A stretch of 64,000 bases of DNA from Terriglobia bacterium (GTDB taxonomy: Bacteria > Acidobacteriota > Terriglobia > Bryobacterales > Bryobacteraceae), in assembly GCA_025358575.1 (NCBI GenBank), contig JANYJA010000144.1, forward strand, positions 1-64,000, given 5' to 3'. Positions 21,549-23,234 of this stretch are shown here, piece after piece. Under the pieces are notes generated by a model. The model saw nothing but the letters and a program-made list of their open reading frames with translations. It made no database searches and had not been told where the DNA came from. Both the position numbers and the translations under genes were made by a program. The stretch's first letter is position 1. Every line of letters begins with the position of its first letter.

Positions 21549-21950
21549 ATGATTAGTTCAGCTTCCGCTTTGCCTCAGCAGCAGCACAAGCCCTTCACGC
21601 GCTTGCAATCCATCGCACTGGTATTTGTGTGCACAATTTTGGGCGCTGGCGCTCAGATTTTGATGAAAACCGGCTCTGCGCAGGTCACGCATTTCGATGT
21701 GATCATGATCCTGACCAACCCGCCTTCGCTCGCCGGTTATATTCTCTATGGCATCAACACTCTGCTGCTGATGTTAGCTTTACGCGACGGCGAGTTGTCG
21801 CTGTTGTATCCGGTGATCGCCCTCACTTATGTTTGGGTCACTATGCTCTCGGTTTATTTCTTCCATGAAACCATGAATCCTTGGAAGGTCGCCGGGATTG
21901 CCGTTATTATGGCGGGCGTTACCGTTTTGGGTCGGGCGGGGACGAAGTGA
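21549..21950 (+). CDS. Small multidrug-resistance/EamA-type transporter subunit 1 (ArnE/F-like)
   Basis: A 133-residue protein with four membrane helices of the drug/metabolite transporter superfamily. It has the SMR-like pattern ILGAGAQILMKTGSAQ in helix 1 and GELSLLYPVIALTYVWVTMLSVYFFHETM in helices 3 and 4. Its stop overlaps the GTG start of a second, homologous four-helix protein, the layout of heterodimeric pairs such as ArnE/ArnF, which flip lipid-linked sugars. The nearby ArnT-like glycosyltransferase makes a role in moving a lipid-linked sugar attractive, but this is inference. Confidence 0.82.
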   Translation: MISSASALPQQQHKPFTRLQSIALVFVCTILGAGAQILMKTGSAQVTHFDVIMILTNPPSLAGYILYGINTLLLMLALRDGELSLLYPVIALTYVWVTMLSVYFFHETMNPWKVAGIAVIMAGVTVLGRAGTK

Positions 21951-22297
21951 AAACTCCGGTCAGCTCGATGCTACTGGTTCTCATCGCCTCCTTCATAGGG
22001 TCTTTCGGCGCCGTGTTTTTGAAACTAGGAGCGGAACGGCTTCGCTACGGGCTCAGGCACATCCTAAGCTGGCAGGCGTTCGTGGGAGTTTCCCTATTTT
22101 TGATTTCATCCGGCTTCTTTTACAGAGGCATTAAGCACGGCGAACTGTCGGTTTTGTACCCCATGGTGTCGCTGGGTTACGTTTGGACGTTACTTTGGTC
22201 GCGCCTGTTTTTCCGCGAGCCAATCACTGCGCCAAAGTTCCTCGCCCTTGGCCTCATCCTCAGCGGAATTGTCCTCATAAATTTTGGGGCTCGCTAG
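21947..22297 (+). CDS. Small EamA/SMR-type transporter subunit 2 (ArnE/F-like)
   Basis: A 116-residue four-helix partner of the preceding protein. GTG at 21947 overlaps the upstream TGA (GTGA), so the two are translated together; an ATG at 21881 would overlap the upstream gene by 70 bases and add non-hydrophobic residues. Repeated family pattern: IGSFGAVFLKLGAERL in helix 1 and GELSVLYPMVSLGYVWTLLWSRLFFREPI. The last 23 bases overlap the end of the DedA-rhodanese gene on the other strand. Confidence 0.82.
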   Translation: MKTPVSSMLLVLIASFIGSFGAVFLKLGAERLRYGLRHILSWQAFVGVSLFLISSGFFYRGIKHGELSVLYPMVSLGYVWTLLWSRLFFREPITAPKFLALGLILSGIVLINFGAR

Positions 22298-23234
22298 CGG
22301 GCATCAGCGGCTCTACGGGAAAGCCTTTGGCAAGCCAAGCTTCATATCCTCCCGCTAAGGGACGCACTCTCTTCACTCCGCGCTTTTTCAATTGCAGCGC
22401 CGCACGGGCGCTGGAGGCTTCGTTGGGTCAAGTGCAGTAGAGCACCACGTCGCGATCCCGAGGAATCTCCTCGTGGCGGGATTCAAGTTCTTCAAAATCA
22501 AAATGCAGCGCGCCCGGTATTTTGTCCGCCCCGTCTTCCCATTCCAGAGAATTGCGAAGATCCACCACCGCGACTTTTTCGCCCCGCTGAATCATACGAT
22601 CCAGCTCTTCGGGCGTAATTCGGGCAATTCGCAGTTCCCGGTAGAACCGCCGGCGCTCGAAAAATTTCCAGCCGATGTATCCGGCCAGGGTCACCGCGAT
22701 CACAACCAATAACCATGTGCCCATTCCCAGGGCGGCTTGTGCTAAATCCTCAAGCTGTTCGCGAAATAGAAGCCCGAGCAGGCTATAGCCACCGGCCCAG
22801 ATTAATGCTCCGAGCCCGTCAAATAGGATGAAACGCCACAACTTCATGTGGAACATGCCGGCGAGCGGCGGCGCGGCAGTGCTTAAGCCTGGAACGAATT
22901 TGGAAAATAGCAGTGATCGTGCGCCGTATTTTACGAAAACGTTTTCGGTGCGGCGGACACAAGAATCCGGCTCAAGCGAAATGCGACAGAGTAATTGCAG
23001 AATTGCCGACCCGCGGCGGCGGCCCATCCAGTACCAAATCAAGTCGCTTATTAGCGAAGCAATTAGAGCCAGCAGCAGCGCCCGGAAAAATTGCATCTTC
23101 CCCATCCCTGCCAGCGCACCCATCGCCAGCAAGACGGGTACTGCGGGAATCGGGAGTCCGATCTGCTCCACAAAAACGGAGAGGAACAGGATGCTATAGC
23201 CGTGCCGCAGAACGAATTCAAGTGTTTCTTTCAT
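22275..23234 (-). CDS. DedA-rhodanese fusion with in-frame UGA at the catalytic position (putative selenoprotein)
   Basis: Residues 1-200 form a DedA/SNARE-associated membrane domain (VPVLLAMGALAGMGKM, YGARSLLFSKFVPGLST). From about 204 a rhodanese sulfurtransferase domain follows (VAVVDLRNSLEWEDGADKIPGA). At codon 269 (22428-22430) the frame reads YCT-UGA-PNEASSARAAL and continues open through RVRPLAGGYEAWLAKGFPVE to a TGA at 22275. Counted from the UGA codon, the tail aligns without gaps to Escherichia coli GlpE starting at its catalytic Cys (shared SS, AA, G, GG-x-EAW), so UGA replaces the nucleophile. A hairpin of bacterial SECIS geometry follows. I read it as a 319-residue selenoprotein; a point nonsense mutation is the main alternative. 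Confidence 0.75.
22395..22413 (-). promoter_or_regulatory. Candidate bacterial SECIS hairpin
   Basis: On the minus strand a perfect 7-bp stem (CAGCGCC with GGCGCTG) encloses the five-base loop CGTGC. The loop begins 21 bases after the UGA codon and has a G at its second position. This meets the published outline for bacterial SECIS elements (loop of 3-14 bases, 16-37 bases from UGA, G among the first two loop bases). GC-rich coding DNA forms stems easily, so the hairpin alone is weak evidence. Confidence 0.55.

Follow-up and report, generated by a model that had tools for sequence, protein, structure and literature searches.

The window, which is the whole stretch of 64,000 nucleotides of Terriglobia bacterium DNA that was analysed, carries on its minus strand a gene for a DedA membrane domain fused to a C-terminal rhodanese domain. 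The gene starts with the ATG at 23232-23234 and comprises 319 codons. A single in-frame TGA occupies codon 269 (22428-22430) and is followed by 50 more sense codons up to a TGA stop. Reading the frame thus reproduced the original prediction, in which the TGA had been placed at 22428-22430 and the frame had been followed for 50 codons to 22275. The following features were located:

22275..23234, minus strand: complete gene of the predicted DedA-rhodanese selenoprotein, 319 residues with Sec269; stop codon TGA at 22275-22277
22773..23150, minus strand: DedA / VTT membrane domain, residues 29-154 (PF09335, 59.8 bits)
22959..22988, minus strand: C83-x8-C92 motif (CRISLEPDSC) in the DedA domain
22329..22616, minus strand: rhodanese domain spanning the UGA, residues 207-302 (PF00581, 61.1 bits against a gathering score of 22.2; profile positions 1-101 of 102)
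22434..22436, minus strand: C267, invariant partner Cys of the predicted Sec269 (199/199 homologues)
22428..22430, minus strand: in-frame UGA, predicted Sec269, second position of the C-x-U motif (LYCTU-PNEASSA)
22395..22413, minus strand: SECIS-like hairpin CAGCGCC-CGUGC-GGCGCUG with a 7 bp stem, a 5-nt loop and G at loop position 2

Only with read-through of the UGA does Pfam give a complete rhodanese domain. When compared to eight relatives, the tail is under purifying selection, with pN/pS values of 0.21-0.57 versus 0.35-0.58 for the upstream part. Scattered mutations in the tail, which had been named as a sign against the prediction, were not found among the homologues.

An AlphaFold model, calculated from an alignment of 33 sequences with Cys replacing Sec, reached a mean pLDDT of 91.8 and a pTM of 0.80, and showed helices and re-entrant-like segments in the DedA domain. 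Fold matches in the PDB covered the rhodanese half only, the DedA half being barely probed, and included 3tp9 (Z 17.2 over 107 residues) and the persulfide-dioxygenase rhodanese 5ve3 (Z 14.6 over 106 residues). Sec269 would be the second residue of C267-x-U269-P (C267-T-U269), a C-x-[C/U]-P loop that is unlike the loops of the solved rhodaneses aligned to it. Ungapped profile alignments (6mxv, 1yt8) place U269 on the catalytic Cys, whereas gapped alignments (3tp9, 5ve3, and MAFFT with Escherichia coli GlpE) place C267 there. The predicted Sec269 is in the active-site loop under either alignment. The original proposal that the UGA replaces the catalytic Cys corresponds to one of these two placements, that of the ungapped alignments. 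The C-x-U pair could form a selenenylsulfide. Elsewhere in the protein, D225 and R227 are invariant or nearly so among the homologues. In the DedA domain, C83 is found in 197/197 homologues and C92 in 196/198; both are also present in four Pseudomonadota Cys-type fusions, whereas the aligned residues of E. coli YghB are not Cys. K112 is invariant like these two cysteines, in about 199 homologues and the Pseudomonadota fusions. According to the positive-inside rule, the rhodanese domain and the C83/C92 loop would both be cytoplasmic.

Homologues of the fusion were found in 144 of the 257 genomes of the same order. The 110 loci of this order, including the locus itself, have TGA (82), TGC (15), TGT (11), GGC (1) or TCC (1) at the equivalent of codon 269. 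In the wider phylum TGA occurs at this codon in 20/29 loci, and in the named genome records in 67/80, distributed over four groups: Acidobacteriota, Rokubacteria (10/10), NC10/Methylomirabilota (5/5) and Deltaproteobacteria (4/4), the MAG labels being the submitters' own. Six records labelled Nitrospirota all have Cys. The sum over the three sets is TGA at 169 of 219 loci, TGC or TGT at 48 and another codon at 2. These sums count some loci twice, as the sets overlap and part of the named records come from genomes already sampled; the distinct sequences number 156 for TGA and 47 for Cys. Both kinds of relative that the prediction called for, Cys homologues and further UGA homologues, are thus present, and the same TGA arrangement recurs in some 150 relatives that belong to several bacterial phyla. 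Stops other than TGA269 are nearly absent ahead of the natural end in the homologues of the same order. On the FastTree tree, at least 17 changes between Sec and Cys are required. TGA likewise occupies this position in a distant clade of DedA-rhodanese proteins (L123-L127), which are 33-36% identical to the protein described here; most of its members show a similar hairpin, and the clade possibly represents a separate Sec lineage. At the Sec/Cys position two homologues (L114, L129) carry Gly (GGC) or Ser (TCC) instead, which suggests that the thiol/selenol function was lost in some lineages. No related DNA was found in the phage records searched.

The source genome is a MAG of 4.77 Mb in 261 contigs with a completeness of 95.6%. 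The prediction had proposed to look there for selA, selB, the selC tRNA-Sec and selD, and all four were found. The tRNA-Sec scored 70.6 bits and was typed by ARAGORN as SeC with anticodon tca (UCA); SelA scored 483.5 bits, SelB 308.8 bits versus a cut-off of 242, with a match spanning positions 1-339 of 581, and SelD 364 bits. The SelD gene (locus L017, G000:C196:32173-33096) has one in-frame TGA near the N-terminus (HVKAAG-U), and SelD of the source genome is itself predicted to be a selenoprotein. Within the order, a tRNA-Sec at E<=1e-9 was found in the genomes of 67/82 TGA loci versus 22/28 other loci, and in 194 of the 257 genomes. Its presence alone is a weak correlate, since most of the order has a tRNA-Sec and MAGs are incomplete. 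The genomes of the 15 TGA loci without a tRNA-Sec match at this threshold all contain SelB, 14 of them over the curated cut-off and one (G237) in two fragments located on separate contigs. Five genomes combine the Cys form with the lack of a tRNA-Sec match, and four of these have no SelB over the cut-off: three gave no SelB match and one (G009) scored 193.7 bits, below the cut-off. The fifth (G238) has SelB.

The hairpin lies just downstream of the UGA and is a candidate SelB-binding element; like bacterial SECIS elements it has a G at one of the first two positions of the loop, here the second. Its first stem base is 14 nt and its loop G 22 nt past the UGA, within the range for bacterial SECIS elements of about 16-37 nt. 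It was found in the MFE and centroid folds alike. Folded alone, the hairpin region showed no unusual stability (z 0.22), and no Rfam family matched the stretch; the case for a SECIS element therefore rests on the comparison of homologues. Among distinct sequences, the five inner pairs are kept in 149/156 TGA versus 10/47 Cys homologues, and loop position 2 is G in 156/156 versus 26/47. When only sequences with the peptide SAR[AV]A are compared, 137/138 TGA versus 5/10 Cys homologues retain the hairpin. In 77 TGA homologues the Ala codons at +7 and +10 are always GCC and GCG (77/77 each), whereas synonyms are mixed at their remaining Ala codons and in the Cys homologues, and codon +7 is GCC in all 138 TGA homologues with the SAR[AV]A peptide. 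Covariation is seen at the outer wobble pair, which is C-G in some sequences and G-C in others; it is paired in 106/156 sequences, compared with a mean of 78.9 in column shuffles, and 0/3000 shuffles reached the observed number; the Cys forms show no excess of pairing here. One inner C-G pair is replaced by U-A in L142 and in L178, and by G-C in L147. The substitutions are compensatory and fall on third codon positions. Column shuffles ignore relatedness, unlike a test on phylogenetically independent pairs taken from the FastTree tree, in which the hairpin went with Sec in an average of 6.4 of 8 pairs and in the opposite direction in 0 (median p 0.016), 8 being all the pairs on well-supported branches. 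In the codon preceding the UGA (22431-22433) most TGA homologues end in T (AGT, TCT, ACT), and TCG, TCC and ACC are common in Cys homologues; a T-ending codon ahead of the UGA may possibly exert a context effect on its decoding.

Taken together, the UGA aligned with Cys in homologues, the conserved sequence downstream of it, the Sec genes of the genome and the SECIS-like hairpin support the original reading, and we assign a probability of about 0.94 to a full-length membrane selenoprotein in which UGA269 is read as selenocysteine. Sec-tRNA(Sec) bound to SelB would decode UGA269 under the direction of the SECIS hairpin just 3' of it, and selenocysteine would be placed in the C-x-U motif, in the active-site loop of the rhodanese domain fused to the DedA domain. 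A nonsense mutation or a miscalled base followed by a relic of a tail would have in its favour that the source MAG is fragmented, with 261 contigs. This reading is already refuted by the homologues and has a negligible probability: the codon is TGA in 169/219 homologous loci, many of them from independent assemblies, other stops are nearly absent before the natural end, and the tail is under purifying selection. Recoding of the UGA independently of selenium, by natural read-through or by a code in which UGA stands for an amino acid, would likewise give an in-frame TGA and a conserved frame. We nevertheless consider it very improbable, as the gene's own stop is TGA, the site is substituted almost only by Cys, the full Sec machinery is present and the hairpin tracks the TGA form.

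The function of the predicted selenoprotein can be addressed more tentatively. A thiol/selenol relay facing the cytoplasm, instead of an ordinary undecaprenyl-phosphate flippase, seems the most likely role, albeit with rather low confidence. Working with Cys83 and Cys92, the two invariant cysteines of the DedA domain, the Cys267-Sec269 pair would carry or exchange sulfane sulfur, as persulfide or selenosulfide, or electrons. Two invariant Cys in the DedA domain combined with the loss of residues of undecaprenyl-phosphate flippases suggest such a membrane relay. In a more specific and still more tentative form, C83-x8-C92 and the C-x-[C/U]-P loop would hand on sulfane sulfur, selenium or electrons, either at the membrane or across it; Sec would prevail in Acidobacteriota, Rokubacteria and NC10, and the DedA domain would have been repurposed from lipid flipping. 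Conserved operon partners were not found, the largest cluster of neighbours being present at 21 of about 200 loci, and this counts against a relay.

The selenoprotein might also be a simple membrane-anchored sulfurtransferase of the GlpE type, with thiosulfate or persulfides as substrates, for which the DedA domain would merely be an anchor; we regard this as possible, though doubtful. Its rhodanese domain is complete, with the fold of GlpE and of the rhodaneses of persulfide dioxygenases and with D225 and R227 conserved, and Cys homologues are annotated as 'DedA family protein/thiosulfate sulfurtransferase GlpE'. However, a mere anchor leaves the invariance of C83/C92 and K112 unexplained, and the loop differs from those of the aligned rhodanese structures. 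An undecaprenyl-phosphate flippase of the COG0586 DedA type, with the rhodanese domain as a redox or sulfur sensor, appears unlikely. Rhodanese fusions have been described within COG0586 DedA proteins (PMC10127716), and the first acidic residue (E39 of YghB, E23 here) is kept in most homologues. Asp51, Arg130 and Arg136 of YghB, by contrast, are reported to be essential in flippases of this family (PMC10127716) and correspond to V32, at a variable and mostly hydrophobic position, to Lys112 and to S118, at a position with S, N or G. The DedA domain does match the UptA models NF052604 and NF052605, but far under their cut-offs, at 69 of 250 and 50.9 of 300. A possible connection of a DedA protein with resistance to selenite (Ledgham et al. 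2005, as cited in PMC10127716) is a lead only.

A 2026 catalogue lists NF041203, rhodanese_LYCAU, as a 'rhodanese-related (seleno)protein', Rhodanese-like form 3, CxU (PMC13188914). This is the best NCBIfam match of the DedA-rhodanese protein and matches all 33 members scanned. It shares the LYCxU-type C-x-U motif in the rhodanese loop (here C267-T-U269) and is colinear over residues 202-309 with 90 bits (E 9e-26), below the curated cut-off of 115 bits; it differs in being a 126-residue model without a membrane domain. DedA-rhodanese fusions of the Cys type have also been described (PMC10127716, PMC12893004) and occur in plasmid annotations. They have the same two domains, C83/C92 and a C-x-C-P loop, as in WP_043095768.1 of Xanthomonas sacchari, but Cys replaces Sec, and the identity to the DedA-rhodanese protein is 33-39% among the plasmid matches listed. 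TsoB (NF045694), a rhodanese/DsbD fusion-like selenoprotein, likewise joins a rhodanese domain to another module, but with a DsbD-like partner and a UxxxxU motif with two Sec (PMC13188914); its model matches the DedA-rhodanese protein very weakly (25.6 of 805 bits). E. coli GlpE (1gmx) has the single rhodanese fold (Z 13.7 over 103 residues) but neither a membrane domain nor Sec, and its loop CYHGNSS contains a single Cys (Cys65). The word DedA is absent from the 2026 catalogue (PMC13188914). No paper joining DedA, rhodanese and selenocysteine was found in a search of openly accessible literature, and literature on DedA and selenoproteins was unrelated to judge by titles and abstracts. The protein had originally been called a putative new selenoprotein; 'new' applies to the membrane fusion with DedA, for which priority is not proven, but not to the stand-alone LYCxU rhodanese selenoprotein, which was already catalogued as NF041203 (PMC13188914).

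The predicted protein adds a membrane-fused architecture to the set of bacterial selenoproteins, and its gene occurs widely among bacteria of soil and groundwater, most of which are known through MAGs. As a distinct subfamily, the DedA-rhodanese fusions have four positions at which a thiol or selenol is conserved, and they lack residues that are reported to be essential for undecaprenyl-phosphate flipping. The conserved pair of UGA and SECIS, together with many natural switches between Cys and Sec, is well suited to studying why selenocysteine is retained in some lineages and dropped in others. Standard gene calling would terminate the gene at the UGA and miss its 50 C-terminal residues. The full-length reading also touches a neighbour on the plus strand, a small ORF at 21881-22297 that encodes a multi-helix membrane protein, EmrE/SMR-like by eye. 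Its last 23 bases (22275-22297) are shared with the selenoprotein gene on the opposite strand, so that the two would be convergent and overlapping.
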